Source of the DNA: a virus | Reading direction: 5' to 3' (one strand) | IMG/VR virus record: IMGVR_UViG_3300042887_000042 | Coordinates: 1-28,511 of that record | Length of the DNA stretch: 28,511 nt | Shown: in pieces, positions 1 to 21,784 of the stretch | Position numbering within the stretch: the first letter of the stretch is position 1 | How the letters are laid out: each line of letters begins with the position of its first letter | Made by a program: the position numbers and the translations under genes | Notes under the pieces: generated by a model | Database searches by the model: none | The model's input: only the letters and a program-made list of their open reading frames with translations | What the model was told of the DNA's origin: nothing

Positions 1-911
1 CTTGGTTCCAGACCGGACCGCTACAACGTCTGATGCCAGGTGGTGCGATTGTGGTGATTATGACGCGCTGGAGCTTATTGGATTTGACTGGGCGCCTGAT
101 TAACTTTGGGATCAACAACCCAGACAGCGAGCCATGGGAGTTGGTGGAGTTGCCCGCGATTTTAAACGATGGCACCGACGAAGAGAAAAGCCTTTGGCCT
201 GCACAGTGGCCTCTCGAACAGCTAAAAGCTAAGAAACAGCAGATGGACCCGCGGTACTGGAATGCCCAGTACATGCAAAAACCCACCTCAGATATGGCAG
301 CGATTATTTCGCGCCGGGACTGGCAGGTATGGGACAAAGACGATCCACCGCCTTGCGACTACATCATTCAGTCTTGGGATACGGCTCACGAGACCAAAAC
401 CACATCCGACTACAGCGCGTGTACGACGTGGGGCATCTGGTACAACGACGAGGACAAGGGCAACCCAAACCTTATCCTGCTAGACGCTTTCAAAGACCGT
501 CTTGCCTTCCCCGATCTAAAACAAGAGGCGCTAAAGCAGTACAAAGAGTGGAACCCAGACGCGTTTATTGTGGAAAAAAAGGCGGCGGGCGGCCCGTTGA
601 TTCAGGAACTACGGCGTATGGGCATACCAGTGCAAGAGTTCACACCGTCGCGTGGTAACGACAAAATGGTTCGTTTAAATGCGGTGGCTGATTTATTTAC
701 GAGTGGCAAAGTGTGGGCGCCGGATACGCGCTGGGCACGCGAAGTTATTGAGGAAGTAGCGTCGTTCCCAGTTGGCGAACACGACGACTTCGTCGATACT
801 ACGACTCAGGCGCTTTTGCGCTTTAGACAGGGTGGGTTTATTTCGTTGGACTCCGACGAAAGAGATGATGACTTTTTATACAAGTACCGTAGGAAAGCTG
901 CGTACTACTAA
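1..911 (+). CDS. terL: Terminase large subunit, C-terminal part (5' truncated)
   Basis: The reading frame is open from base 3, so the gene begins upstream of the window. Only the end of the ATPase domain and the nuclease domain are present. Counting from the Met at position 33, MTRW (residues 10-13) follows a hydrophobic strand, as in the ATPase coupling region. The RNase H-like nuclease shows SWDTAHETKTTSDYSA with D116, a strand ending in VEKKAAGG with E181, and GEHDDFVDTTTQAL with D251, D252 and D255. These are the usual acidic metal ligands of phage terminase nucleases. In this family the protein drives ATP-dependent DNA packaging at the portal and cuts the concatemer. It sits just upstream of the portal gene, the standard order. 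The identification is firm; the packaging type (cos, pac or other) cannot be told from this part. Confidence 0.95.
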   Translation, partial: WFQTGPLQRLMPGGAIVVIMTRWSLLDLTGRLINFGINNPDSEPWELVELPAILNDGTDEEKSLWPAQWPLEQLKAKKQQMDPRYWNAQYMQKPTSDMAAIISRRDWQVWDKDDPPPCDYIIQSWDTAHETKTTSDYSACTTWGIWYNDEDKGNPNLILLDAFKDRLAFPDLKQEALKQYKEWNPDAFIVEKKAAGGPLIQELRRMGIPVQEFTPSRGNDKMVRLNAVADLFTSGKVWAPDTRWAREVIEEVASFPVGEHDDFVDTTTQALLRFRQGGFISLDSDERDDDFLYKYRRKAAYY

Positions 912-934
912 GTTAAAAATTAAGGACGGATGAT

Positions 935-3346
935 ATGAGCATAGAGAAAAGTTTGTACGCGGCGCCAGAAGGCTTGGAAGCTTTAGCGGGCGAGCCGGAT
1001 ATTGAGATCGAGATTGAGGATCCAGAAGCGGTAAAAATTGAGATGGATGGTCTTGAGATTGAGATGCGCCAAGGCGAAGGCGAGGAAGACTTTAACGTAA
1101 ACCTCGCGGATGTTTTAGATGAAGGCACGATTCAGAGTTTGGCGGGTGATTTAGCAGAAGACATCTCAAACGACCTAGCCTCCCGCAAAGACTGGGAAGA
1201 GATGTATAAGGACGGCATTACGCTGTTGGGCCTGAAGTTCGAGGAAAGAACCGAGCCATGGGACGGCGCATGCGGTGTGTTTCATCCGATGATTACAGAG
1301 GCGGTGGTGCGGTTTCAGTCAGACACCATCATGGAAACGTTCCCAGCCAAAGGGCCGGTAAGAACGCAAATTATCGGTAAAGAAACTACCGAGAAGAAAG
1401 AAGCGGCGGTTCGTGTACAAGACGACATGAACTATCAACTCACGGAGAAAATGCCTGAGTACCGCCCTGAGCATGAGAAGATGCTGTGGAACCTGCCGTC
1501 AGCCGGTTCTGCGTTCAAGAAGGTGTATTACGACCCAAGCCTAGAGCGCCAAGTATCGGTGTTTATCCCAGCAGAAGACATTATTCTGCCCTACGGCACC
1601 AGTGAAATTAACACTTGCCATCGCATTACCCATGTAATGCGTAAGACCAAGAACGACCTGCTAAAGCTAATGAACGCAGGGTTCTATAAAGACATTGACC
1701 TAGGCGAGCCAAGCAAATTTACTAGCGACATCCAAGAGCGCAAGGATAAAGAGACTGGCTTCTCGGCAACGTACGACGACCGCTTTGAGATTTACGAAGC
1801 GCACGTTGATTTGGATTTACCGGGCTTTGAGGATAAAGATAAAGACGGAAACGTTACTGGTATTGGCTTGCCTTACGTAGTAACAATGGTTCGTGGTACC
1901 AATCAGGTTTTAGCAATTCGCAGAAACTGGAAAGAAGATGATCCTCTCAAACTTAAGCGTCACCATTTTGTGCATTACCAGTATATTCCTGGTTACGGTG
2001 CTTATGGCTTTGGACTATTTCACCTTATCGGTGGTTACGCGAAGAGTGCAACTAGTATCATGCGCCAGCTTGTTGATGCTGGTACTTTATCTAACCTTCC
2101 TGGAGGGTTAAAGTCCAGAGGGCTGCGCATCAAGGGCGACGACACCCCAATCGCGCCCGGAGAATTTAGAGATGTGGATGTAGGCTCTGGAGCTATACGC
2201 GACAACATCCTGCCACTTCCTTATAAGGAGCCTTCACTAGTCTTATCCGGTTTGATGGACAAGATTGTCGAAGAGGGGCGTCGTTTTGCGGCTACCTCGG
2301 ACATGAAGGTAGCGGATATGTCCAACCAAGCGCCGGTTGGAACCACACTCGCTATCCTCGAAAGAACCCTAAAAGTGATGTCGGCTGTTCAAGCCCGCGT
2401 TCACTACTCGATGAAACAAGAGTTACAACTTCTTGCCGGGATTATTCGTGACTACACAGACGACGAGTACACCTACGAGCCAGAAGAAGGCACACCACGC
2501 GCTAAGAAGGCTGACTACAGCAACGTAGAAGTATTACCTGTATCAGATCCCAACGCCGCTACTCTCTCCCAGCGAGTAGTCCAGTACCAAGCTGTTATTC
2601 AGTTGGCGCAGATGGCTCCGCAGATTTACAACATGCCGGTGCTCCATCGCCAGATGCTGGAGGTTTTGGGTATCAAACATGCGGACAAGCTAGTGCCGTT
2701 GGAAGAAGACCAGAAGCCAACCGATCCGATTTCAGAAAACCAGAACGCGTTACGCGGCAAGCCACTAAAGGCTTTTGCCTACCAAGACCACGAGGCTCAC
2801 ATCAAGGTCCACACCTCCGCCATGAACGACCCGATTGTTCAGCAACTCATTGGGCAGAACCCACAGGCAGCGGTGATCCAAGGGTCTATGCAAGCCCACA
2901 TCGCCGAGCACGTTGGATACGCCTACCGTGTCAAGATGCAGCAGGCTCTTGGCTTTGCCTTACCAGACCAAGAAGATGCGTTGCCAGAGGACATGGAGAG
3001 AGAACTTAGCCGCATGATGGCAGAAGCCGCACCGCAAGTGTTGGCGCAGTCTCAAGCCATGGTTGCTCAGCAACAAGCTGCACAGAACGCTCAAGACCCA
3101 GTTCTTCAGTTGCAACTGCAAGATCAGCAACGCAAGAACAAGGAGACCGAGATCAAGGAGAAAGACTTGATGATGAAGGCAGCGGCTAAAGCTGACGAGA
3201 TAAGGCTCAAAGAAGAGCAGATTGCCTCTACCGAGAGAATCGCGGGTATGAACGCGCAGATCAAGGTCATGGAAGATGCCAAGAATAGAGCGCTAAAAAT
3301 CACGGAAAAACAACTAGATACACGCAAAAAACCAACGAAGGAGTGA
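935..3346 (+). CDS. Portal protein (large, podovirus-like)
   Basis: This 803-residue protein starts at ATG 935, with AAGGA eight bases upstream. The central region carries motifs I associate with large portals of P22/N4-like phages: EPWDGACGVFHPMITEA near residues 105-121, a glycine-rich GYGAYGFGLFHLIGG segment, LVDAGTLSNLPGG, and a long helix around TTLAILERTLKVM. The last 110 or so residues are Gln-, Lys- and Glu-rich and probably form a long coiled coil, like the barrel of large portals. The N terminus holds an unusual alternating acidic/hydrophobic stretch (residues 22-44) that resembles the scaffold N terminus. Portals form the dodecameric ring at the packaging vertex. Position between terminase and scaffold supports the call; the exact subfamily is uncertain. 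Confidence 0.9.
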   Translation: MSIEKSLYAAPEGLEALAGEPDIEIEIEDPEAVKIEMDGLEIEMRQGEGEEDFNVNLADVLDEGTIQSLAGDLAEDISNDLASRKDWEEMYKDGITLLGLKFEERTEPWDGACGVFHPMITEAVVRFQSDTIMETFPAKGPVRTQIIGKETTEKKEAAVRVQDDMNYQLTEKMPEYRPEHEKMLWNLPSAGSAFKKVYYDPSLERQVSVFIPAEDIILPYGTSEINTCHRITHVMRKTKNDLLKLMNAGFYKDIDLGEPSKFTSDIQERKDKETGFSATYDDRFEIYEAHVDLDLPGFEDKDKDGNVTGIGLPYVVTMVRGTNQVLAIRRNWKEDDPLKLKRHHFVHYQYIPGYGAYGFGLFHLIGGYAKSATSIMRQLVDAGTLSNLPGGLKSRGLRIKGDDTPIAPGEFRDVDVGSGAIRDNILPLPYKEPSLVLSGLMDKIVEEGRRFAATSDMKVADMSNQAPVGTTLAILERTLKVMSAVQARVHYSMKQELQLLAGIIRDYTDDEYTYEPEEGTPRAKKADYSNVEVLPVSDPNAATLSQRVVQYQAVIQLAQMAPQIYNMPVLHRQMLEVLGIKHADKLVPLEEDQKPTDPISENQNALRGKPLKAFAYQDHEAHIKVHTSAMNDPIVQQLIGQNPQAAVIQGSMQAHIAEHVGYAYRVKMQQALGFALPDQEDALPEDMERELSRMMAEAAPQVLAQSQAMVAQQQAAQNAQDPVLQLQLQDQQRKNKETEIKEKDLMMKAAAKADEIRLKEEQIASTERIAGMNAQIKVMEDAKNRALKITEKQLDTRKKPTKE

Positions 3347-3349
3347 TGA

Positions 3350-3556
3350 ATGGACTTAATTGTGATGGATTTTATCGAGGCGATGCGAAGCAAGATTCGC
3401 CAAGATATGAACAACTTTACGGACGACTTGGCTACGGGCGCATGCCCGGACCATGCGGCCTATAAAGAGCTTTGCGGGGTTATTCGAGGTCTAGCCTATG
3501 CAGAGCGTCACCTACTTGACCTCGCTGAAAACATAGAGAAGGCTAACGATGAGTGA
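3350..3556 (+). CDS. Small hypothetical protein between portal and co-chaperonin
   Basis: I do not recognise this 68-residue protein. It starts at ATG 3350, three bases after the portal stop codon, with AAGGAG at 3338-3343. A second in-frame ATG lies at 3365, but the spacing favours the first. The sequence looks mainly helical and contains AYKELCGVIRGLAYAERHLLDLAENIEKA, which is amphipathic and could form a short helical hairpin or dimer. There is no signal peptide or membrane segment. Its end overlaps the next start by eight bases, so translation is probably coupled to the co-chaperonin. Small helical proteins of this kind near portals are common in aquatic phages, but no function can be assigned. 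Confidence 0.75.
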   Translation: MDLIVMDFIEAMRSKIRQDMNNFTDDLATGACPDHAAYKELCGVIRGLAYAERHLLDLAENIEKANDE

Positions 3557-3983
3557 AGCTATAGCAGTTCCGGAAAAAGAAATAATCCTGCCGCCGGGCG
3601 TATTTAAAGCCCCAGAAGTGGATCATGAGTATGAACAAGCCGAGCAAAAGGCAAAAGCGCTACCAGACCCAAAAGGCTGGCGGTTGCTATGCGCCTTGGT
3701 TGATGCAGGCGATACCTACGAAAGCGGTATTGTCAAATCTGACCAGACGGTAAAAATTGAGGAAATTACTTCCCCAGTCTTGTTCGTAGTCAAGCTTGGA
3801 CCAGATGCCTACAAAGACCCTGAAAAGTTTCCTGAAGGCGCGTGGTGTAAAGAAGGCGATTTCGTGATTACTCGCCCGTATACGGGTACCAGAATCATGA
3901 TCCACGGTAAGGAATTTCGCTTGATTAACGACGACCAAGTAGAAGCGACGGTCGAAGACCCACGTGGCATACAACGCGTTTAA
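3549..3983 (+). CDS. GroES-like co-chaperonin (Cpn10 family)
   Basis: This 144-residue protein has a Cpn10 layout preceded by about 38 extra residues. GWRLL (43-47) matches the first GroES strand. SGIVKSD (59-65) sits where the GroES mobile loop carries the GroEL-binding Ile-Val-Leu tripeptide; here it reads Ile61-Val62-Lys63. VVKLGPDAY (80-88) matches the VVAVGPG strand, and EGDFVITRPYTGTRIMIHGKEFRLINDDQVEATVED (102-137) matches the C-terminal KVGD...YAGTEVKIDGEEYLIL...DILAIVE block. Phage co-chaperonins such as T4 Gp31 cap host GroEL to help fold the capsid protein. Its place between portal and scaffold/coat genes fits that role. The lysine in the mobile loop and the insert PDAYKDPEKFPEGA are departures from bacterial GroES. 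Confidence 0.82.
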   Translation: MSEAIAVPEKEIILPPGVFKAPEVDHEYEQAEQKAKALPDPKGWRLLCALVDAGDTYESGIVKSDQTVKIEEITSPVLFVVKLGPDAYKDPEKFPEGAWCKEGDFVITRPYTGTRIMIHGKEFRLINDDQVEATVEDPRGIQRV

Positions 3984-3994
3984 AGGAGATAAAC

Positions 3995-4984
3995 ATGGCT
4001 GAATATGAAAAAGATGAATTTAAGTTTCCGCATGAAGTAGAGGAAGAACAGGCGGAAGCTAAGGGTAAACCCGAAGATGACATAGAAATTGACATTGATT
4101 CTGAGGGTGACGTATCCATTGAAATTGAAGACGATACCCCTATCCGCGATCGAACTGCTAAGCCTTTGGAAAGGGATGTTGAAGACCCAACGGAAGAAGA
4201 AATTGAGTCTTACACCAAAGGAGCGCAGGCTCGTATCAAGGAACTAACACACGCACGTCACGACGAGCGTAGAGCTAAAGAAGCTATTGCTCGTGAGAAA
4301 GAAGAGCTTGAGCGTTTAACTAAACAGATCCTTGAGGAGAACCGCAGGCTAAAAGAGTATGTAAAAACTGGCGAAGCCACGTATGCGGAGACTTTGCAAG
4401 CCAAAGCTGAAGCAGAGATGGAGATGGCGCGACGTAAATTTAAAGAAGCGCAAGAATCGTACGATGCTGAAACAATGCTGGAAGCACAAGAAGCATTGAC
4501 TGATGCAAAGATGAAACTTGAGAGCGCAAAAAATTTCAAGCCAACCCCTTTACAAACTCAAGAAGATGTTGTACAAACATACCAAACGGCTCCCGAAGCC
4601 CCCAAACTTGATGAAAAAACCTTGCGCTGGCAAGCAAAAAACCAGTGGTTTGGAACTCCGGGGTACGAAGAAATGACGGCCTTTGCTCTAGGGCTGCACC
4701 AAAAACTAGTGGCAACCGGGGTAGATCCCCGCTCAGACGATTATTTCGAGCGTGTCGACGCTCGCTTAAAACAGGTTTTCCCAGAGATGTTGGGAAATAC
4801 TGATACGGTTAAGGCTGAGCCGACTAAAAAACCTGCGAATGTTGTGGCTCCTGCCACCCGTTCATCGGGTGCCAAGAAAGTAATTAAGCTGACTGCGACG
4901 CAAGCTCGTCTTGCAGAGAAGTATGGTTTATCCCACAAACAATATGCTCAGGAAATTTTAAAATTGGAGGCTCAAAATGGCTAA
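3995..4984 (+). CDS. Capsid scaffolding protein
   Basis: This 329-residue protein starts at ATG 3995 with AAAGGAG at 3982-3988. It has the profile of a phage scaffold: a very acidic N terminus (residues 14-50), a long Glu/Lys/Ala-rich helical and coiled-coil stretch (roughly 70-180), and a short basic helical C terminus (about 293-329, containing KKVIKLTATQARLAEKYGLS) of the kind that binds coat protein. No protease motif is seen. It lies directly upstream of the coat region, as scaffolds do. Residues 28-47 alternate Ile/Val with Asp/Glu, like the portal N terminus. The function is inferred from composition and position more than from clear homology. Scaffold proteins nucleate procapsid assembly inside the shell and then leave or are degraded. 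Confidence 0.8.
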   Translation: MAEYEKDEFKFPHEVEEEQAEAKGKPEDDIEIDIDSEGDVSIEIEDDTPIRDRTAKPLERDVEDPTEEEIESYTKGAQARIKELTHARHDERRAKEAIAREKEELERLTKQILEENRRLKEYVKTGEATYAETLQAKAEAEMEMARRKFKEAQESYDAETMLEAQEALTDAKMKLESAKNFKPTPLQTQEDVVQTYQTAPEAPKLDEKTLRWQAKNQWFGTPGYEEMTAFALGLHQKLVATGVDPRSDDYFERVDARLKQVFPEMLGNTDTVKAEPTKKPANVVAPATRSSGAKKVIKLTATQARLAEKYGLSHKQYAQEILKLEAQNG

Positions 4985-5429
4985 TAACCGCACACCCCGT
5001 GAACAAGAAACACGCGAAAAAACAGAAACTAGGTACGTTTATCGTCCACCTAGCACTCTGCCAGAACCTAACCCAGACCCAGATTACGAATTCCACTGGG
5101 TAGCAACTTCGATTGCTGGACAAGAGAACGCCACAAACGTATCTCAAAAGTTCCGCGATAAGTGGGTGCCGTGTAAAGCAGAGGACTATCCTGAACTCCA
5201 GATTTCTGGCAACAAGGATGGGAACGTTGAAGTTGGTGGCTTGCTTTTATGCAAGAAACCAAGAGAACTGGCTGAAGCCCGTAGACAATATTTTGATGAC
5301 AAAGCTCAAAAACAAATGGAGTCCGTGGACAACAGCTTTTTACGTAATAACGATGCTCGTATGCCTTTATTTGCTGACCGCAAGAGTACAACAACTAAAG
5401 GACGCGGGTTTGGTAATGGAAATTCTTAA
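4977..5429 (+). CDS. Hypothetical capsid-module protein
   Basis: This 150-residue protein starts at ATG 4977 inside the last codons of the scaffold gene (8-base overlap), with TGGAGG at 4965-4970, so the two are probably translationally coupled. It opens with a polar, charged segment (PREQETREKTETRYVYRPP) and a proline-rich linker. A compact middle follows, with KFRDKWVPCKAEDYPEL and GGLLLCKKPRELAEARRQYF. The tail is glycine-rich (TTKGRGFGNGNS). No transmembrane segment or enzyme motif is visible. The position between scaffold and coat genes suggests a head-assembly or minor virion protein. Overlapping open frames at 5068-5433 are shadows. Confidence 0.75.
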   Translation: MANNRTPREQETREKTETRYVYRPPSTLPEPNPDPDYEFHWVATSIAGQENATNVSQKFRDKWVPCKAEDYPELQISGNKDGNVEVGGLLLCKKPRELAEARRQYFDDKAQKQMESVDNSFLRNNDARMPLFADRKSTTTKGRGFGNGNS

Positions 5430-5442
5430 CTAGGAGATTTAA

Positions 5443-6069
5443 ATGGCTTATCCAACCGTTTCTGCTCCCTATGGCTTACAGCCGATCAACAGCGTAGATG
5501 GCAAACCCTACGCTGGTGCAACCCGTCAACTGCCAATCGCAAGTACTTATAACACTGCGATTTATAACGGGGATATCGTAACTGTAGTCGATGGTGGCAC
5601 TATTGCAAAATCAGGCGTTACAGACAACTCTACCGGTTCTGCGGCTAACTACACATATGGCGTGCTAACGGGTGTTCAATACACCAATACGCAAGGCCAG
5701 ACTGTACAAGCCCAGTATTATCCAGGTAATGCTGCAGCTTCTAACGCTATTGCTTATGTTGTTGACGATCCTATGGCTGCTTTCAAAGTAGCTGTTGTGC
5801 ACGCAAACAGCGTTGTAACTACCGTTAATCGCAGCGTTGTAGGTATTAACATGGCTATCGACCAAGGTACCGGTAATAACACTACTGGTGACTCTGGCGC
5901 GGGCGTTCTTGTTCCTACCGACAACGAAGGTAATGCAGCGACATTGCCTGTACGTTGCGTAGCTGTAGTTCCTGAGACTGCAACAGGCGCAAATGCCTTC
6001 ACTGAAGTAATCGTGAAGATCAACAACCCACAAATACTCCGTGCAACGGGTATTGACTACGCCGCTTAA
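5443..6069 (+). CDS. Probable capsid decoration or minor head protein
   Basis: This 208-residue protein has TAGGAG at 5431-5436 and ATG 5443. It begins with SAPYGLQPINSVDGKPYAGATRQLPIASTYNTAIYNGDIVTVVDGG. The pattern of short strands, small residues and Asn/Thr is typical of beta-rich virion proteins. I have seen similar starts (APYGL.P....G.PY.GATR) in uncharacterised structural proteins of aquatic phages placed next to the coat gene. There are no cysteines apart from one late residue and no membrane segment. Its position immediately before the major capsid gene, with its own strong ribosome binding site, suggests an abundant shell-associated protein such as a decoration or cement protein. 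It could alternatively be a second coat component. Confidence 0.65.
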   Translation: MAYPTVSAPYGLQPINSVDGKPYAGATRQLPIASTYNTAIYNGDIVTVVDGGTIAKSGVTDNSTGSAANYTYGVLTGVQYTNTQGQTVQAQYYPGNAAASNAIAYVVDDPMAAFKVAVVHANSVVTTVNRSVVGINMAIDQGTGNNTTGDSGAGVLVPTDNEGNAATLPVRCVAVVPETATGANAFTEVIVKINNPQILRATGIDYAA

Positions 6070-6081
6070 GGAGCTTAAAAA

Positions 6082-6996
6082 ATGGCTATTTCACGCGCAC
6101 AACTACTGAAAGAGTTGCTCCCCGGTTTGAACGCATTGTTCGGTTTAGAGTACAAGCGTTACGGCGAAGAGCACAAAGAGATCTACGAAACTGAGAAATC
6201 AGAGCGTAGCTTCGAAGAAGAAACCAAGCTGTCTGGCTTCTCTGCTGCACCAGTCAAAAACGAAGGTTCTGCCATCGCTTATGACAATGCACAAGAGGCA
6301 TTTACAGCACGCTATAACCATGAAACCATTGCTTTAGGTTTCTCGATCACCGAAGAGGCGATTGAAGACAACCTGTATGACAGCCTTTCTGGTCGTTATA
6401 CCAAAGCATTGGCTCGTGCCATGGCTTATACCAAGCAAGTTAAAGCTGCTTCTGTATTGAACAACGGCTTCACCAACTCCAGCCAGTACTACGGCGGCGA
6501 CGGTGTACCTCTGTTCTCTACTCAGCATCCTTTGGTTTCTGGTGGTGTTAACAGCAATCGTCCTACCACTGGCGCTGACTTGAATGAAACTTCGTTGGAA
6601 AACGCAGTTATTCAGATTAGCTTGTGGACAGACGAGCGCGGCTTGCTCATTGCAGCAATGCCACGTAAGTTGATTATTCCTCCACAACTTCAGTTCGTTG
6701 CAACCCGTTTACTTGAGACTAATCTCCGTGTTGGTACCAATGACAACGACATCAACGCATTGAAGAACAATGGTTCGATCCCAGAAGGTTACGCAATTAA
6801 CCACTATCTGACCGACACCAATGCGTGGTTCTTGACCACCGACGTTCCTAACGGCATGAAGCACTTTGAGCGTATGCCTTTAAGCAACTCGATGGACGGA
6901 GACTTCGACACCGGTAACGTACGTTATAAGGCTCGTGAGCGTTATTCGTTCGGCTGGTCCGATCCTCTCGGTATGTTTGGTTCTCCTGGAGCCTAA
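6082..6996 (+). CDS. Major capsid protein, Mu gpT-like (HK97 fold)
   Basis: This 304-residue protein is almost the length of Mu gpT (about 305). It has AAGGAG at 6068-6073 before ATG 6082. Features shared with the gpT family include a strand reading ITEEAIEDNLYDSLSGRYTKALARAMAYTKQVKAASVLNNGF (the long spine helix and the residues leading to it), then DGVPLFSTQHPLVSGG. A later ALNPRK-like strand reads AMPRKLIIPPQLQFVATRLLET, and the protein ends FGWSDPLGMFGSPGA. HK97-fold coat proteins form the icosahedral shell. A strong terminator follows immediately, which fits a need for high expression and a defined transcript end. The identification is confident; maturation cleavage is not evident. Confidence 0.9.
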   Translation: MAISRAQLLKELLPGLNALFGLEYKRYGEEHKEIYETEKSERSFEEETKLSGFSAAPVKNEGSAIAYDNAQEAFTARYNHETIALGFSITEEAIEDNLYDSLSGRYTKALARAMAYTKQVKAASVLNNGFTNSSQYYGGDGVPLFSTQHPLVSGGVNSNRPTTGADLNETSLENAVIQISLWTDERGLLIAAMPRKLIIPPQLQFVATRLLETNLRVGTNDNDINALKNNGSIPEGYAINHYLTDTNAWFLTTDVPNGMKHFERMPLSNSMDGDFDTGNVRYKARERYSFGWSDPLGMFGSPGA

Positions 6997-7993: not shown

Positions 7994-8314
7994 ATGGCTA
8001 AGTCTCCTGCGTGGCAACGAAAAGAAGGCAAAAACCCTGAGGGCGGCTTAAACGCCAAGGGCAGGGCTTCTTACAATGCATCTAATCCGGGTAAACCCGG
8101 ACTTAAGCGCCCACAACCAGAAGGCGGTTCTCGTCGCGATTCGTTCTGTGCCCGTATGAAAGGTATGAAGCGAAAGCTAACAAGCGCCAAGACCGCTAAC
8201 GACCCCAACAGCAGAATCAACAAATCTCTTCGCGCATGGAACTGTAAAGAAGGTGGTGCGGTTCGTGGTGGTGGGTGTGAGGTGCGTGGGAAGACGAGAG
8301 GGAAAATTGTTTGA
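7994..8314 (+). CDS. Small basic phage protein with C-terminal GKTRG tag (DUF6321-like)
   Basis: This 106-residue, strongly basic protein begins SPAWQRKEGKNPEGGLNAKGRASYNASNPGKPGLKRPQPEGG. I associate that sequence with the uncharacterised family DUF6321; the name is from memory. It then has RRDSFCARMKGMKRKLTSAKTANDPNSRINKSLRAWNC, another conserved block of that family. The last 14 residues, GGCEVRGKTRGKIV, match the ends of the genes finishing at 9062 and 9433. Arg/Lys richness suggests nucleic-acid binding, possibly DNA held in the head, but this is inference. There is no convincing ribosome binding site. The start lies three bases after the previous stop, so translation is probably coupled. 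Confidence 0.75.
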   Translation: MAKSPAWQRKEGKNPEGGLNAKGRASYNASNPGKPGLKRPQPEGGSRRDSFCARMKGMKRKLTSAKTANDPNSRINKSLRAWNCKEGGAVRGGGCEVRGKTRGKIV

Positions 8315-8559
8315 TGGAATTGAACGTCATCTGGAACGTAGTCTTGACTGCGATAGTCGCTGCGTTAGGCTTTGTGTTAAAAGAAAAGTTTAATGAAATC
8401 AATCGCTTGGGTATTCTGTTAAACAGAACCAGAGAGGAGGTTGCTCGTGACCACATTACACGTGCAGAAGTTAAAGCAGACTTGCAAGCAATTCGTGAGC
8501 ATTTTGACGACGGCTTTGCAAGACTTGAAGCAAAAATTGACAAACTGGCTGAACGTTAG
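8314..8559 (+). CDS. Small membrane-anchored coiled-coil protein
   Basis: I start at ATG 8314, which overlaps the preceding TGA stop as ATGA, rather than at the TTG one codon earlier. The 81-residue product has one hydrophobic segment at residues 5-23 (VIWNVVLTAIVAALGFVLK). A charged amphipathic helix follows, with REEVARDHITRAEVKADLQAIREHFDDGFARLEAKIDKL. That is the form of a type II membrane protein with a coiled-coil stalk. Such a protein could be a holin or spanin accessory, or a virion protein that reaches the host membrane. It is far from the lysis genes at 22003-23410, which makes an infection-stage role possible. The function is unknown. Confidence 0.65.
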   Translation: MELNVIWNVVLTAIVAALGFVLKEKFNEINRLGILLNRTREEVARDHITRAEVKADLQAIREHFDDGFARLEAKIDKLAER

Positions 8560-8571
8560 AAAGGGAACAAA

Positions 8572-8757
8572 ATGAAACATTCAGATATGGCAAAAGACAA
8601 ACCCATGATGAAAAAAGTCGCTGCTGAAGCCGTTAAAGGCCATGAGAAGCGCATGCACAAGATGGCTAAAGGCGGTGTAACTCGTGCCGATGGCTGCGTA
8701 ACTAAAGGCCATACTAAGGGCAAAATGATTTCAATGAAGGGCGGCGGTTACTGCTAA
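8572..8757 (+). CDS. Tiny Lys/Gly-rich protein with internal ADGC tag
   Basis: This 61-residue basic protein has AAAGGGA ahead of ATG 8572. Its first part, MKKVAAEAVKGHEKRMHKM, is a basic helix with histidines. It is followed by AKGGVTRADGCVTKGHTKGKM (tag at residues 38-53) and a short MKGGGYC end. The tag matches those of its neighbours except that His replaces Lys in GKTKG. Two cysteines (42 and 61) and three histidines are present, but they do not form a clear metal-binding pattern. Its stop overlaps the next start (TAATG). It belongs to the tagged small-protein island; no function is known. Confidence 0.7.
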   Translation: MKHSDMAKDKPMMKKVAAEAVKGHEKRMHKMAKGGVTRADGCVTKGHTKGKMISMKGGGYC

Positions 8758-9062
8758 TGGACGAATATACCGCTAACCCCCTTCAGACTGAGCGCGAAGC
8801 ACAACGTGTGTTGCGCAAAATGAATGCTGAAAAAGTCCAAGACGCAGAAGCTAAGCAAAAAGCCGCCGAAGCGCGTGACTTAGCTAGGCGGTTTGTTACT
8901 GAAGGGAAAAGTGTGTTTGGCGGTGGCAGTGCTGATTTAGAAAAAGGCATGATGGGCGGGCGTATGAAAAAGCCCACCTATAAAGCTGGCGGTACAGTTA
9001 GTGCTTCATCCCGTGCTGACGGTATAGCTCAACGGGGTAAAACGAGAGGAAGGATAGTGTAA
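8757..9062 (+). CDS. Small helical protein with C-terminal ADG/GKTRG tag
   Basis: This 101-residue protein starts at the TAATG overlap at 8757. The N-terminal half is an Ala/Glu/Lys/Arg-rich helix (EREAQRVLRKMNAEKVQDAEAKQKAAEARDLARRF) likely to form a coiled coil. A glycine-rich linker FGGGSADLEKGMMGGRMKKP follows. The end reads YKAGGTVSASSRADGIAQRGKTRGRIV, the same GG-x-V ... RADG ... GKTRG module as in the next gene. Its stop overlaps the following ATG. The helix-linker-tag layout suggests that the tag is a docking or targeting element attached to different bodies. No enzyme motif is visible. Confidence 0.72.
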   Translation: MDEYTANPLQTEREAQRVLRKMNAEKVQDAEAKQKAAEARDLARRFVTEGKSVFGGGSADLEKGMMGGRMKKPTYKAGGTVSASSRADGIAQRGKTRGRIV

Positions 9063-9433
9063 TGTTAGGGTTAGCCGCGCGTATGGCAGCAAAAATGGCT
9101 GCTAAAAAAATGGGCAAGCAAGCTGCAAAAGAGGCAGACGAAATCCCACGTTACACACAATCAAAAGGCTTTAAGGCTCTTGAGAAAGCACAAAAGAATA
9201 GCGGCCCAGAAGCCGCTATTAGAGACATGGAAAAAGGCGCTGCAGTATCATTAGGCTCAGCACTTTTAGGAGCCACTGGTAAATCATCGCTTGGAGAAAA
9301 AGAAGAGGCGTCTCCGCCTAAAGAAGAAGCAAGCGAAAAAGAATATCGCCGTGGTGGTACCGTTCGTTCTTCCGCTTCCAAACGTGCTGATGGTTGCGCT
9401 ATCAAAGGCAAAACGAAAGGCAGAATGATATGA
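9062..9433 (+). CDS. Small protein with amphipathic N terminus and C-terminal tag
   Basis: This 123-residue protein starts at the TAATG overlap. The first 22 or so residues (MLGLAARMAAKMAAKKMGKQAAK) form an Ala/Lys amphipathic helix resembling a membrane-active or nucleic-acid-binding peptide. The middle contains YTQSKGFKALEKAQKN and a hydrophobic GAAVSLGSALLGATG stretch, then an acidic EKEEASPPKEEASEKE linker. The last part, YRRGGTVRSSASKRADGCAIKGKTKGRMI, is the clearest copy of the island's tag. The stop overlaps the next start as ATGA. The layout could suit an internal head or ejected protein, which is inference. Confidence 0.7.
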   Translation: MLGLAARMAAKMAAKKMGKQAAKEADEIPRYTQSKGFKALEKAQKNSGPEAAIRDMEKGAAVSLGSALLGATGKSSLGEKEEASPPKEEASEKEYRRGGTVRSSASKRADGCAIKGKTKGRMI

Positions 9434-9720
9434 GAGCGTCTCGTGGAATGGGGGCAATAATGCCCAACAAAATGCCCGGTAAAAAGATCATTAAGCGTAA
9501 GGACAAACCGCAAGATGTGGAAATGTATGCCGAAGGTGGCAAAGTTAAATCCAAGGTTAATGAGGCTGGTAACTATACGAAGCCTAGTATGCGCAAGTCT
9601 TTATTTGAGAGTATTAAAAACTCGGCTGTGCAAGGCACTGCGGCGGGTCAGTGGTCTGCTCGCAAAGCGCAATTGCTAGCCAAGAAATACAAAGAGAAAG
9701 GTGGGGGTTATCGTGGCTGA
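9430..9720 (+). CDS. Small basic protein with GQWSARKAQLLAKKY motif
   Basis: I start at ATG 9430, which overlaps the preceding TGA stop, rather than at an in-frame ATG 36 bases upstream that lies well inside the preceding gene. The 96-residue product has KMPGKKIIKRKDKPQDVEMYAEGGKVKSKV, then GNYTKPSMRKSLFESIKNSAVQGTAAGQWSARKAQLLAKKYKEKGGGY. The second part resembles a short uncharacterised family found in bacteria and aquatic phages, which I remember under DUF5872 without certainty. In bacteria I recall this motif fused to the motif of the gene at 9917. The basic charge suggests DNA association, but no function is established. Confidence 0.72.
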   Translation: MRASRGMGAIMPNKMPGKKIIKRKDKPQDVEMYAEGGKVKSKVNEAGNYTKPSMRKSLFESIKNSAVQGTAAGQWSARKAQLLAKKYKEKGGGYRG

Positions 9721-9889
9721 AAAATGGATACAGAAAGCGATTAAGAAACCCGGCGCTCTGCGTGAGTCGATGGGCGTTAAAAAGGGAGAGAAGATCCCTG
9801 CCAAGAAGCTTGCTGCGGCGGCTAAAAAGCCCGGCAAGATGGGGCAACGTGCGAGGTTAGCTCAGACTCTGTCGAAGCTAAAAAAATAA
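9713..9889 (+). CDS. Tiny basic protein (WIQKAIKKPGALRESMG family)
   Basis: GTG 9713 is chosen over GTG 9701. Initiation at 9713 places the AAAGGTGGG stretch about nine bases upstream and gives the clean N terminus MAEKWIQKAIKKPGALRESMGVKKGEKIPAKKLAAAAKKPGKMGQRARLAQTL. The product has 58 residues with a very high lysine content. It overlaps the end of the previous gene by eight bases. I recognise the sequence as a recurrent unnamed small protein of phages, sometimes found as a C-terminal piece of larger proteins. It looks like two short helices joined by a Gly/Pro turn. The chemistry suggests nucleic-acid binding; the role is unknown. Confidence 0.68.
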   Translation: MAEKWIQKAIKKPGALRESMGVKKGEKIPAKKLAAAAKKPGKMGQRARLAQTLSKLKK

Positions 9890-9904
9890 TGTTTGCGTGG
9901 CTTT

Positions 9905-9909
9905 GGAGG
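9905..9909 (+). promoter_or_regulatory. Ribosome binding site fixing the GTG start at 9917
   Basis: GGAGG at 9905-9909 lies seven bases before GTG 9917. The competing ATG at 9889 in another frame has no comparable site. This decides which of two overlapping frames is read. Confidence 0.75.
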
Positions 9910-9916
9910 ATTTTAG

Positions 9917-10165
9917 GTGGCACTAGCAAAACCCCAGCGCAGTCTCAAGTCTTGGACCAAACAGGAATGGACAACCAAGTCAGGGAAAAAGTCGTCCGAA
10001 ACAGGCGAACGGTATCTGCCAAAAAGAGCAATACAGGCGCTAAGCCCAAGCGAATACGCAGCAACGACTCGGGCAAAACGAGCCGGAAAAGCCCAAGGAA
10101 AGCAGTTTGTCCCGCAGCCTCCAAAGGTAAAGCAAAAGGTAAAACCATACCGAAAGGTTAAATAA
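9917..10165 (+). CDS. Small basic protein with TGERYLPKRAI motif
   Basis: The 82-residue product starts at GTG 9917 with GGAGG seven bases upstream. It reads SLKSWTKQEWTTKSGKKSS, then TGERYLPKRAIQALSPSEYAATTRAKRAGKAQGKQFV, then a basic end QKVKPYRKVK. This is a recognisable small family in bacteria and phages (W-x2-W-x-TKSGK ... GERYLP). I recall it fused behind a GQWSARKAQLLA domain in bacteria, here encoded separately at 9430. The alternative frame from 9889 lacks a ribosome binding site and family motifs. The stop overlaps the adaptor start (TAATG). The function is unknown; nucleic-acid binding is plausible from the charge. Confidence 0.78.
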   Translation: MALAKPQRSLKSWTKQEWTTKSGKKSSETGERYLPKRAIQALSPSEYAATTRAKRAGKAQGKQFVPQPPKVKQKVKPYRKVK

Positions 10166-10917
10166 TGACTGTCGTTGCAAATGCTACCTTTAATCTAGAC
10201 CTCTCGGAAATAGTCGAAGAGGCTTTTGAGCGTTGTGGCTCAGAGCTACGCTCGGGCTACGATTTAAAGACAGCGAGACGCTCTCTTAACTTGCTGTTTG
10301 CTGATTGGGCAAACAGGGGCATTAACTTGTGGACGGTTGAGCAAGGACAGATTTCGTTGGTGCAAGGGCAGAATACCTATGATTTACCCGTAGATACAGT
10401 TGACTTATTGGAACATGTTATTAGGACTAACCCTGGTGTACAAAACAACCAAGCAGACCTAACGATAACCCGTATCTCAGTTTCCACCTACGCCACTATC
10501 CCAAACAAACTGCAACAGGCTCGCCCTATTCAGGTATGGGTAAATCGCCAGTCTGGGGCAGATTACGCAGGAGATTTAACTACCTCTCCGCCTGCTGGTA
10601 TTGATAAACCAAAGATTGTTGTTTGGCCTACCCCGGATCAAGGAACGCAACAAAACCCTTATTACACGTTTGTGTACTGGCGGTTGCGGAGAATCCATGA
10701 TGCCGGCAACGGCGTTAATACGATGGACGTCCCGTTTCGCTTTTTGCCTTGCATGATTGCTGGCTTGTCATATTACCTGTCGGTTAAGCTTCCTGAAGCC
10801 CAAGCTCGGATTGGGATGCTTAAAGCGCAGTACGACGAAGCTTGGCAGTTAGCTGCTGATGAAGATCGTGAAAAAGCCGCGGTTAGGTTTGTGCCTCGCC
10901 GCATGTTTATTACTTAA
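10165..10917 (+). CDS. Head-to-tail adaptor (P22 gp4 / T7 gp11-like)
   Basis: This 250-residue protein begins with a helical segment (LSEIVEEAFERCGSELRSGYDLKTARRSLNLLFADWANRGINLWTVEQG). It continues with a beta part that includes QGQNTYDLPVDTVDLLEHVI, then WVNRQSGADYAGDL and KPKIVVWPTPDQ. It ends with helices (FRFLPCMIAGLSYYLSVKLPEAQARIGMLKAQYDEAWQLAADEDREKA). This helix-strand-helix pattern with a YxLP turn is what I know from adaptor proteins that sit below the portal in short-tailed phages. It presumably extends the portal and joins the nozzle encoded at 23422. A second adaptor-like gene is found at 11838. The assignment to adaptors is good; the exact counterpart is less sure. Confidence 0.8.
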   Translation: MTVVANATFNLDLSEIVEEAFERCGSELRSGYDLKTARRSLNLLFADWANRGINLWTVEQGQISLVQGQNTYDLPVDTVDLLEHVIRTNPGVQNNQADLTITRISVSTYATIPNKLQQARPIQVWVNRQSGADYAGDLTTSPPAGIDKPKIVVWPTPDQGTQQNPYYTFVYWRLRRIHDAGNGVNTMDVPFRFLPCMIAGLSYYLSVKLPEAQARIGMLKAQYDEAWQLAADEDREKAAVRFVPRRMFIT

Positions 10918-10927
10918 GGAATAGCGT

Positions 10928-11350
10928 GTGCCAAACAGATTTGCTTCCGGTAAGTATGCGATTTCGCAGTGCGACCGCTGCAACTTTCGTTTTAAGTTAA
11001 AGGTGCTAAAGACACAGATAGTAAAGACCAAGCCATATCAGATACGTGTTTGTCCTACGTGCTGGGATCCAGATCACCCACAGTTGCAGTTAGGTATGTA
11101 CCCTGTGGAAGATCCGCAAGCGTTGCGTAACCCAAGACCAGATAATACGTACTATCAGGCTGGCTATACAGGATTGCAGTTAAACCAGAACGCGGGGTCA
11201 ACGCTTGATGGCTTTGGTGATCCGACGATGGGTAGTAGGGTATTTCAATGGGGGTGGAACCCTGTTGGGGGTGGGTCAAACTGGCCTCAAACGCCAAATG
11301 ACTTGGTTTCTGGTGTAGTTTTGGGTACAGTTACGGTAACGACAACTTAG
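10928..11350 (+). CDS. Small zinc-binding phage protein
   Basis: The 140-residue product starts at GTG 10928 with AAGGA at 10915-10919. The N-terminal 45 residues hold two CxxC pairs (C15/C18 and C42/C45) in QCDRCNFRFKLK ... IRVCPTCWDPDHPQLQLG, a zinc-ribbon arrangement. The rest is Gly/Pro/Asn-rich with PRPDNTYYQAGYTGLQLNQN, followed by a Trp/Gly-rich stretch and a Thr/Val tail. I know this N-terminal module from phages, located beside adaptor genes as here. It is probably a minor virion or tail-assembly protein; alternatively the ribbon binds nucleic acid during packaging. An antisense open frame across it is a shadow. Confidence 0.75.
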   Translation: MPNRFASGKYAISQCDRCNFRFKLKVLKTQIVKTKPYQIRVCPTCWDPDHPQLQLGMYPVEDPQALRNPRPDNTYYQAGYTGLQLNQNAGSTLDGFGDPTMGSRVFQWGWNPVGGGSNWPQTPNDLVSGVVLGTVTVTTT

Positions 11351-11359
11351 GAGAAAGAC

Positions 11360-11572
11360 ATGTTTAAAAAAGGCGCTGACGGTGTAACTAAACAGGGCAA
11401 AACCAAAGGTAAAAACCTTGGCGATACAGGCCCATCTGTAGGAATTCAGCAAGGCGGTAAAGGCAAAGGAGCCAAAACCGTTACTAACGAAAGCTTGAAG
11501 TCTATGGGGCGTAATATGGCTCGCGTAGCTAATCAAGGAATGATGCGCAAAAGCGCAGGAAGAGGACGTTAA
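11360..11572 (+). CDS. Tiny basic protein with N-terminal ADG/GKTKG tag
   Basis: This 70-residue protein has TAGGAG before ATG 11360. It begins MFKKGADGVTKQGKTKGKNLG, which is the island tag placed at the N terminus rather than the C terminus. A Gly/Lys-rich stretch (IQQGGKGKGAKTV) and a short helix SLKSMGRNMARVANQGMMRKSAGRGR follow. There are no cysteines or membrane segments. The position between the two adaptor genes extends the island beyond the 7994-9433 group. The very basic, low-complexity sequence suggests an intrinsically disordered, DNA- or scaffold-associated protein. The function is unknown. Confidence 0.68.
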   Translation: MFKKGADGVTKQGKTKGKNLGDTGPSVGIQQGGKGKGAKTVTNESLKSMGRNMARVANQGMMRKSAGRGR

Positions 11573-11574
11573 TC

Positions 11575-11838
11575 ATGGCTAAATATAGTATGAAACGGGA
11601 CGGTAAAGAAGTCGGTCCGGCTTCTGTTTACGCAGAACCCCACACAATGACGGGACAGAAAGTGACCGTAGCTGGAGCTATTAAAGATCAGTCCGGCGCT
11701 AAAGTCATGGACGAGCTTGACATTTCTCTTGGCAAATTAAGCAAAAACACCGGTAAAGGCGTAAAGACTGACGGCATTAAAATCCGTGGTACAGGCGCTG
11801 CTACTAAAGGCGTTATGGCTAGAGGGCCGATGGCATAA
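11575..11838 (+). CDS. Small hypothetical protein (MAKYSMKRDGKEVGPASVYAEPHTM)
   Basis: This 87-residue protein has GAGGA ahead of ATG 11575. It begins KYSMKRDGKEVGPASVYAEPHTMTGQKVTVAGAI and continues MDELDISLGKLSKNTGKGVKTDGIKIRGTGAATKGVMARGPMA. The final Lys/Gly-rich segment KTDGIKIRGTGAATKG is a distant look-alike of the island's ADGC-x3-GKTKG tag, but I do not count it as a true copy. No known domain is recognised, although the start of the sequence is one I have seen in other aquatic phages. It overlaps the next start (TAATG), so it is coupled to the second adaptor gene. Confidence 0.68.
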   Translation: MAKYSMKRDGKEVGPASVYAEPHTMTGQKVTVAGAIKDQSGAKVMDELDISLGKLSKNTGKGVKTDGIKIRGTGAATKGVMARGPMA

Positions 11839-12485
11839 TGAATTACACACAGTTAACGCAAGCGATTATTGACTATGCTGAGTCTGACGAACAGACTTTC
11901 GTAGACAACATCCCGCTTTTTGTCCAGCAATGTGAAGAGCGGGTATATAACGCCGTTCAGATCCCAGCCATTCGCAAGAATCAGGTTGGTAACTTCACTC
12001 AGGGCGACAAGTACCTTGCGTTACCGAATGACTATTTAGCCTCGTTTTCTATGGCGGTAATTTTGGCTGACGGGTCTCAGGAGTTTTTGATTGACAAAGA
12101 CGTCAACTTTATACGGCAAGCCTATCCCAGCCCAACAGACGAAGGCGTACCTCGTTACTACGCCCAGTTTGAGCCGTACACATACATTATTGGACCCACC
12201 CCAGACGACAACTACCAAGTAGAACTGCATTATTACTACTACCCACAGTCAATTGTGACTGCCAATACGTCATGGTTGGGCGATAATTTTGAGACTGTTT
12301 TACTCTATGGCTCGTTGCGTGAAGCCGTCATCTTCCAAAAGGGAGAGCAAGACATGGTTACGTATTACGAGCAGAAGTATCAAGAATCCTTAGCATTACT
12401 CAAAGACTTGGGTGATGGTAAAGATAGACGTAGCGCATACCGTGATGGACAATTACGATTACCCGTACCAGGGCCTGTTAGATAA
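11838..12485 (+). CDS. Second head-to-tail adaptor-like protein
   Basis: This 215-residue protein starts at the TAATG overlap. It begins MNYTQLTQAIIDYAESDEQTFVDNIPLFVQQCEERVYNAVQIPAIRK, followed by a GDKYLALPNDYLASFSMAVIL strand pair. Mixed beta segments with a notable run of tyrosines (HYYYYPQ) come next, then helices (NFETVLLYGSLREAVIFQKGEQDMVTYYEQKYQESLALLKDL). The helix, Y-x-LP turn and terminal helix order resembles the gene at 10165, so the two may be distant paralogues or sequential rings between portal and nozzle. The end RLPVPGPVR is extended and could insert into the neighbouring ring. The fold class is likely; the exact place in the tail is inferred. Confidence 0.72.
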   Translation: MNYTQLTQAIIDYAESDEQTFVDNIPLFVQQCEERVYNAVQIPAIRKNQVGNFTQGDKYLALPNDYLASFSMAVILADGSQEFLIDKDVNFIRQAYPSPTDEGVPRYYAQFEPYTYIIGPTPDDNYQVELHYYYYPQSIVTANTSWLGDNFETVLLYGSLREAVIFQKGEQDMVTYYEQKYQESLALLKDLGDGKDRRSAYRDGQLRLPVPGPVR

Positions 12486-20566: not shown

Positions 20567-21784
20567 ATGGCAAGTACATTTTCAACCACACTACGCCTAG
20601 AGCTAATCGGTGATGGCGACCAGTCGGGTATCTGGGGGCAGACTACCAATACCAACCTAGGAACGCTCCTAGAGCAAGCCATTACTGGCGTGGTATCAAT
20701 TACCATGGTCGATGCCAACTACACGCTATCTAACTTTAACGGTGTATCCGATGAAGCCCGCAACGCTGTTCTGGTGGTAGGTGGTACAAATGCTGCAGTG
20801 CGGGATATTATTACTCCGCTGGTTGAGAAACTGTATGTAGTCAAGAACAATACAGTAGGTGGGTTTGCTATTAATATCCGTGCGGCTAGTGGCTCATCTG
20901 TATCCGTGCCTAATGGTGCGACTGTCTGGGTTTATTGTGATGGCACTAACTTTAACGCAATTGGCACTGAGTCCGTAGGTAACTTTGAAGTCAACGGCAA
21001 CTTAACGGTTACTGGCAATACCAACGCTGTAGCGGCTACCTATACGGGTAACGTATCTGCTGCTAGTTTTAGTGGGGCAGGGTTAACCATTACTTCAATC
21101 AACGCATCAAACATTTCGGCTGGTACGATTGCTAACGCTCGAACCACTGCGGCTTCAGCCAACGGAGCAAGCACTATCGTAACCAGAGATTCCAACGGAG
21201 ACTTTAGTGCCAGAACCATTACGGCTAATTTAACAGGTACGGCTTCTAGTGCAACTAGCCCAGCGTCTGGTGGGTCGTTTATTACGTCCAGCAATATTGG
21301 CAGTCAATCCGTTGCTTTTGCCACAAATGCCACAAATGCCACAAATGCCACAAATGCCACAAATGCCACAAATGCCACAAATGCCACAAATGCCACAAAT
21401 GCCACAAACGCCACAAACGCTACCAACGCCACTACTCAAGCAATAGGAACAAATAACACCACTATTGCAACTACCGCATTTTTGGCAACTTCGGTTCTTG
21501 GTGGAGTTTCTCAGTCATGGGTAAACGTGTCGGGAAGTAGATCAGTCGGGGTTACTTATACAAACTCAACAGGAAGGCCGATTCAAGTTTCTGTAATTAT
21601 GCAGCAAGCTAGCAGCACCACACCAACAGACGTTTTATTTGTTGATGGACTTGTTGTTTCAAAACAAACACACATTGGTGTTGGTGATTCACAGACTTTA
21701 TCTGCCATAGTTCCAAACGGCAGCCAGTATTACATATTATCAAACCCAGATACTTTTATTGAACAATGGCTTGAATTGAGGTAA
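20567..21784 (+). CDS. Tail fibre with ATN microsatellite shaft
   Basis: This 405-residue protein begins STTLRLELIGDGDQSGIWGQTTNTNLGTLLEQAITG, a common N terminus of fibres in aquatic phages. Residues about 180-210 carry one INASNISAGTIANARTTAASANGASTIVTRDSNG module, shared with the gene at 12941. A run of twelve Ala-Thr-Asn triplets follows, encoded by a 9-bp DNA repeat, then TIATTAFLATSVLGGVSQSW. The C-terminal domain (about 310-405) has GRPIQVSVIMQQ and ends DTFIEQWLELR; it is likely the receptor-binding tip. The repeat lies in the shaft just before that tip. The protein is probably trimeric. Antisense and shifted frames across the repeat are artefacts. Confidence 0.83.
   Translation: MASTFSTTLRLELIGDGDQSGIWGQTTNTNLGTLLEQAITGVVSITMVDANYTLSNFNGVSDEARNAVLVVGGTNAAVRDIITPLVEKLYVVKNNTVGGFAINIRAASGSSVSVPNGATVWVYCDGTNFNAIGTESVGNFEVNGNLTVTGNTNAVAATYTGNVSAASFSGAGLTITSINASNISAGTIANARTTAASANGASTIVTRDSNGDFSARTITANLTGTASSATSPASGGSFITSSNIGSQSVAFATNATNATNATNATNATNATNATNATNATNATNATNATTQAIGTNNTTIATTAFLATSVLGGVSQSWVNVSGSRSVGVTYTNSTGRPIQVSVIMQQASSTTPTDVLFVDGLVVSKQTHIGVGDSQTLSAIVPNGSQYYILSNPDTFIEQWLELR
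21320..21427 (+). repeat. 9-bp microsatellite (GCCACAAAT) in fibre shaft
   Basis: Nine perfect tandem copies of GCCACAAAT (21320-21400) are followed by two copies of GCCACAAAC and one GCTACCAAC. Together they encode twelve Ala-Thr-Asn triplets. The unit is three codons long, so copy-number change keeps the frame. The perfect copies indicate recent expansion. Confidence 0.95.

Follow-up and report, generated by a model that had tools for sequence, protein, structure and literature searches.

A short peptide tag on unlike small proteins encoded beside the head genes of a clade of uncultured phages

The stretch of viral DNA analysed here (the window) is the IMG/VR record IMGVR_UViG_3300042887_000042 with a length of 28,511 nt (28.5 kb). 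Between positions 7994 and 11572 it carries five small genes whose products are unlike each other except for a common peptide tag with the core RADG-x4-GKT[KR]G, usually located at the C-terminus. An original prediction, made from the letters alone, had regarded this tag as a mobile docking element.

The five tagged proteins of the window

The tagged genes and the evidence for each of them are as follows (aa, amino acids).
7994..8314, + strand: 106-aa protein with a DUF6321 domain (8027-8239) and a C-terminal tag variant GGGCEVRGKTRGKIV, tag core at 8273-8311 (sequence, Pfam, profile).
8572..8757, + strand: 61-aa protein with tag RADGCVTKGHTKGKMI at 8683-8730, then a GG-rich end with a C-terminal Cys (sequence, profile).
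8757..9062, + strand: 101-aa protein with a helical body and C-terminal tag RADGIAQRGKTRGRIV at 9012-9059 (sequence, profile, AlphaFold2 model).
9062..9433, + strand: 123-aa protein with C-terminal tag RADGCAIKGKTKGRMI at 9383-9430 (sequence, profile).
11360..11572, + strand: 70-aa conserved protein with an N-terminal copy KGADGVTKQGKTKGKN at 11369-11416 (sequence, profile, relatives).

The tag forms the exact end of the proteins encoded at 8757 and 9062. The protein encoded at 7994 had been grouped with these two as ending in a near-identical module, but its C-terminus is a variant without RAD. This copy is not noise, since the same GGGCE variant is present in relatives L270 and L198, and the homologue from L196, 98% identical in the body, reads GDGCEIRGKTRGKIV. 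The tag of the 8572 protein stops 8 residues before the C-terminus, a layout recurring in many relatives. In the 11360 protein the tag occupies residues 4-19; the N-terminal copy is found in all 24 aligned members of this family, and ADG and GKT are invariant in 24 relatives.

All five copies are borne out by the sequence and by a tag profile built from relatives only, with the tags of the window left out. Its search against 834 six-frame open reading frames (ORFs) of the window matched exactly the five named ORFs and none other. They score 49.8, 44.1, 29.4, 18.2 and 13.4 bits, all above the top score of 9.0 bits obtained over 50 shuffles of all 834 ORFs.

The bodies attached to the tag are indeed unlike each other, as had been proposed, although their description can be refined. 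The “basic globular” body of the 7994 protein is the Pfam domain DUF6321 (PF19846; 66.6 bits against a gathering threshold of 28.5, profile positions 1-72 of 72). The body of the 8757 protein is modelled by AlphaFold2 as one long helix and has one homologue among the loci compared, while the body of the 9062 protein has none among them. In the AlphaFold2 models the tag region is without stable fold (predicted local distance difference test score, pLDDT, of 50-59); outside the helices the models are too uncertain for a fold search.

Spread of the tag and selection on its peptide

IMG/VR was searched with a degenerate in-frame DNA pattern for RADG-x4-GKT[KR]G, which gave at least 120 matches. 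The control pattern, the same with one base fewer between the half-motifs and hence out of frame, gave 5 matches, 0 of them with the tag. The motif thus lies far above the background frequency for Lys/Gly-rich proteins, the level at which the original prediction would have failed; the capsid loci described below agree. In total 334 tagged ORFs were collected from 121 sources (120 listed loci and the window), with 1 to 5 per source. The C-terminal bias is evident: in 206 of the 334 ORFs the match ends 0-1 residue from the protein end.

The C-terminal consensus is KKGGxVSSAS[KR]R[AG]DG[IC]Ax[KR]GKT[KR]G[KR][MIF][VCI]. Every one of 177 tags has D, G, G, T and G at the fixed positions; K and R interchange. 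The upstream GG, already noticed before the C-terminal copies of the window, is nearly invariant over 137 representative proteins. A second type has a GG- and Cys-rich end, from which the tag is farther removed. A QH[NR][FL]M N-terminal domain is present in 39 tagged proteins, 35 of which have Cys at the end.

Judged from these sequences, the tag is found in one clade only, a widespread one of uncultured, mostly freshwater short-tailed phages. A genome collection yielded 57 pattern matches, of which six loci score by profile and four of these six have the head module. Locus L155 of this collection was rejected as a chance match and L166 as a probable chimera: in the latter, a contig of a Patulibacter metagenome-assembled genome, a membrane acyltransferase-like ORF (165-2132) runs into MKRYAKGGNVSASKRADGCAQRGKTKGRMI at the contig edge, probably by misassembly. 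No match was obtained by tblastn with the 9062 protein against phage records or with the consensus tag against plasmids. Literature searches for the motif, DUF6321, Pag-Yong1 and related names found the tag described nowhere.

After masking of the tag, 323 bodies fall into 104 clusters, mostly singletons. The largest cluster (134 members) comprises several visibly different protein types joined via common GG/Lys-rich sequence, so that 104 is, if anything, an underestimate of the body types. The bodies have a median isoelectric point of 9.3, and by charge and hydropathy 81% of them count as disordered. For most of the 137 representatives no function emerges from Pfam, PHROG, NCBIfam or PADLOC; at most 7 of them have Pfam or PHROG matches (DUF6321 in 2, a phrog_16759-type N-terminal domain in 2, and three single matches, at least two of them marginal). 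Some tagged proteins of L012, L047 and L057 have an EF-hand/dockerin-like stretch just before the tag (DLTGDGKITRADVLKGRGVF in L012). Where a relative encodes one or two tagged proteins (L299, L303, L334, L351, L353, L363), the N-terminal motif SRAxMxxQ is often common to these as well, hinting at an ancestral tagged protein.

DUF6321 itself occurs both with and without the tag. Among 236 loci with homologues of this domain, 219 are untagged and 17 continue into GG and the tag. The DUF6321 tree, with 6 changes of tag state and as few as 1 of them forced, has too little resolution for gains of the tag to be counted. The domain is known from cyanophages and pelagiphages. Close homologues of the 7994 body occur in about 500 phage records, and the tag on DUF6321 is absent from the known records listed. 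In other phages (L287, L288) DUF6321 is a C-terminal domain on differing bodies, and the 7994 body has matches to eight PHROG families, in every case at the end of the profile or at most 18 residues from it. DUF6321 may therefore be another reusable terminal module of virion proteins.

The tag is under selection as a peptide. Codons differ between copies, as had been noted for the window: where two tags of one genome have the same residue, its codon differs in 51% of cases, and the core DNA identity between copies of one source has a median of 67%, with the key residues fixed. Tags are also more alike within one genome than between genomes. For pairs with at least half of the synonymous codons diverged, identity at variable positions is 0.62 within and 0.50 between genomes, and 0 of 2000 samples were as high, in a test that ignores kinship of the genomes. 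Selection follows from both results, since synonymous codons diverge at fixed residues and the likeness within a genome exceeds chance even then. The cause of this likeness is probably a partner shared by the tags of each phage, old gene conversion being the alternative.

By their codons the tag copies are in general old. The view that they do not result from recent DNA duplication is correct for the window but not everywhere: in L072 the tag core is DNA-identical on three proteins with different bodies, which means that the tag spreads between genes or is converted. A mobile docking peptide with unlike bodies, usually C-terminal, is thus well supported by the 104 clusters, the codons, L072 and the occurrence of DUF6321 with and without the tag.

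Gene neighbourhood and capsid lineage

The tag cluster lies downstream of a head module (3..6069) and of the capsid gene. The surrounding genes are listed below.
3-911, + strand: terminase large subunit, head module upstream of the capsid gene.
935-3346, + strand: portal, same module.
3549-3983, + strand: GroES-like protein, same module.
3995-4984, + strand: scaffold-like protein, same module.
4977-5429 and 5443-6069, + strand: two further genes of the module.
6082..6996, + strand: major capsid protein (PHROG major head protein), 83-87% identical in 16 tagged relatives; leading candidate for the partner of the tag.
8311..8559, + strand: untagged companion, membrane helix and coil by inspection; position conserved in relatives.
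9430-9720, + strand: untagged conserved companion, basic, with a KPSMRK...GQWSARKAQLLAKKYKEKGGGYRG domain (phrog_17747); homologues in 188 loci.
9701-9889, + strand: untagged conserved companion; homologues in 42 loci.
9917-10165, + strand: untagged conserved companion with GTG start; homologues in 156 loci, up to 95% identical.
10165..10917, + strand: SU10-type head-tail adaptor (PF24175, E 3.4e-07), closing the tag cluster.
11838..12485, + strand: second SU10-type adaptor (PF24175, E 6.9e-22).

The frame 9889-10161 was rejected as a gene, with 12 loci only versus 156 for the overlapping GTG-started 9917-10165. The conserved protein of 11575-11838, present in 109 loci, ends in a Gly/Lys-rich module TDGIKIRGTGAATKGVMARGPMA that is tag-like in places. 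Farther downstream lie a 405-aa gene at 20567 with an Asn-Ala-Thr repeat run (21230-21446) and a 478-aa protein (26380-27816) with a long C-terminal module GPGDGMSDSIPG...LADGEFVVPADVVSHLGNGSTDAGARKLYAMM. For the latter neither Pfam nor PHROG gave a match, and the compared loci, most of which stop short of this region, contain no homologue.

One gene order is common to sixteen relatives. It runs from the terminase through the portal, GroES-like, scaffold-like and capsid genes to small genes, the tag cluster and an SU10-type adaptor, followed by further small genes and the second adaptor. Their capsid proteins are 83-87% identical to that of the window, their portals 59-66% and their scaffold-like proteins 36-51%. 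Head-module genes are present in 118 of the 120 listed tag loci. The other two are 1-kb stubs, one of them belonging to the same genome as L198, a larger piece that does have the head module. In genomes of 50-65 kb all tag copies are in one small cluster and none elsewhere.

The tag is associated with one unusually conserved capsid lineage and fades as the capsid diverges. Of the 28 capsid-matched loci that extend 5 kb or more downstream, 27 have tags, and these lie 1.1-5.4 kb away from the capsid gene. The 240 capsid loci contain 77 C-terminal copies, every one of them downstream of this gene and on its strand, with 0 on the other strand; a scrambled pattern gave 0 copies in these loci. Among loci with enough downstream sequence, a strict C-terminal copy is present in 25 of 31 at a capsid identity of at least 82%, in 5 of 25 at 74-82%, in 0 of 4 at 66-74% and in 0 of 21 below 66%. 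The 74-82% class usually has one tagged protein with a diverged linker. L414, a shorter locus with capsid identity below 66%, does carry a copy.

The same head module is found in the phages DSL-LC04, HTVC023P, CRP-901 and Planktothrix phage Pag-Yong1, with capsids 56-74% identical to that of the window. No tag was found in DSL-LC04 or in the marine HTVC023P, HTVC027P and CRP-901. The cyanophage Pag-Yong1 (capsid 74%) encodes in the same interval (L280, 10650-11576) one 308-aa Pro/Ala/Arg-rich protein ending GGMIGRDGCAKRGRTKGRFI, with a tag-like C-terminus GRDGCAKRGRTKGRFI. The profile search did not report this protein, and over its last 14 residues it matches at 71%, with E = 4 taken alone; its membership is based on that match together with the position and the C-terminal place.

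Two domains attached to the tag hint at a link with virions. One type of tagged protein matches PHROG families named virion structural protein. In cyanophage S-SCSM1, for which 45 virion proteins were established by mass spectrometry (PMC9602691), DUF6321 is the C-terminus of a protein named “virion protein”.

Proposed docking to the head and alternative explanations

The explanation we favour, with a probability of roughly one half, is that the tag is a short docking peptide read by a component of head assembly, recruiting variable cargo into the head. The peptide, linear, usually C-terminal and unstructured alone, would be bound most likely by the major capsid protein or by a scaffold or core factor inside the prohead. 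While the head is being assembled it would draw in small, basic and mostly disordered proteins, a set that changes from phage to phage, and the packaged cargo could be ejected along with the DNA. Since nothing but the address would be recognised, the bodies could diverge freely. Of the two targets named in the original prediction, capsid and DNA, the capsid is favoured because of the gene location, because the tag goes exclusively with one capsid lineage and because two attached domains have links to virions.

Several points weigh against this explanation. No observation so far places a tagged protein in a particle, and the S-SCSM1 link is a record name only, covering the DUF6321 domain and not the tag. 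The 38 capsid residues separating tagged from untagged clades do not converge on one site, and 6 of the 31 capsid-matched loci lack a strict C-terminal copy. The association with the clade could also come in part from common descent of the gene cluster.

The position and lineage data also fit the somewhat unlikely possibility that the tag docks to an intermediate of head assembly, such as the scaffold, the GroES-like chaperone, the portal or the adaptor, so that the tagged proteins are helpers leaving before maturation or else decorate the exterior of the shell. The head module does encode GroES-like and scaffold-like proteins. However, the scaffold-like protein is far less conserved than the tag and the capsid, a conserved role in assembly agrees poorly with hypervariable bodies, and basic, Lys-rich disordered bodies would better suit the interior beside the DNA than the outer surface. 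Since both tag and bodies are basic, the tag might instead be a nucleic-acid-binding tail of proteins that condense or protect the phage DNA in the cell or in the head. This is unlikely: the residues that stay fixed (D, G, G, T and G) are not only basic ones, K and R interchange, and the tag keeps to one capsid lineage and one gene cluster.

It is improbable that the tag directs proteins within the infected cell (to a host target, to degradation or to a certain location) with no relation to the particle. Small proteins that are diverse and variable can serve in anti-defence or take-over, and the lack of a tagged protein shown in a virion would agree with this. Yet all copies are within the head gene block and never elsewhere in long genomes, and PADLOC gave one match only, a marginal one, for the 137 representatives. 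Finally, the location of tags at 3' gene ends and the copying of tag DNA between genes in L072 could suggest a recombination patch or a translation signal with no selection on the peptide. Codon divergence at fixed residues largely refutes both a patch and a Shine-Dalgarno function, as do the median core DNA identity of 67% and the internal and N-terminal copies; besides, the common codons CGT, CGC, GGT and GGC are unable to act as Shine-Dalgarno sequences. Such an origin is hardly tenable.

The T4 capsid-targeting sequence is removed by the prohead protease after a Leu/Ile-x-Glu site. In contrast to it, the present tag is Gly-rich and its consensus has no Glu, hence no T4-type cleavage site; no separate protease gene was recognised in the head module by Pfam/PHROG annotation. 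The T4 signal is also N-terminal, whereas the present tag is mostly C-terminal and only the 11360 family has it at the N-terminus. The T4 internal proteins are a highly diverse set conserved in the targeting sequence only (PMC3012670). The likeness is in one short conserved signal on diverse, small, basic proteins linked to the head, in the present case by gene location and capsid lineage, with 104 body clusters and one tag.

Cargo-loading peptides of encapsulins are similarly short, often C-terminal and disordered, on cargo encoded near an HK97-type shell gene. This likeness rests on position and disorder, not on sequence. Encapsulin peptides belong to compartments and the present tag to phages: the shell is a phage capsid with terminase, portal and a PHROG major head protein in its module, and one genome encodes several unrelated cargoes. 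Cyanophages and pelagiphages possess the same DUF6321 domain as the 7994 body, but none of the known records listed has the tag on it, against 17 of 236 homologues in the present clade. By analogy, the best explanation is that the tag works like the T4 signal or an encapsulin peptide while being a member of neither group.

It is possible, though we hold it rather tentatively, that a dedicated and transferable label for head loading, with no relation to the T4 and encapsulin signals, fills the virions of an abundant, almost uncultured clade with an open-ended, fast-changing set of injected proteins. The Pag-Yong1 isolate with its one tag-like copy makes the idea of head docking directly testable. 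If the idea is true, the tag would be a candidate genetically encoded loading tag. Its 15-residue signature would be a sequence-readable marker of head-associated, possibly injected proteins in a large uncultured clade, and hundreds of unannotated proteins could be assigned to the virion. Phages of this clade would then possess another natural route, separate from that of T4, for loading protein cargo into their heads.

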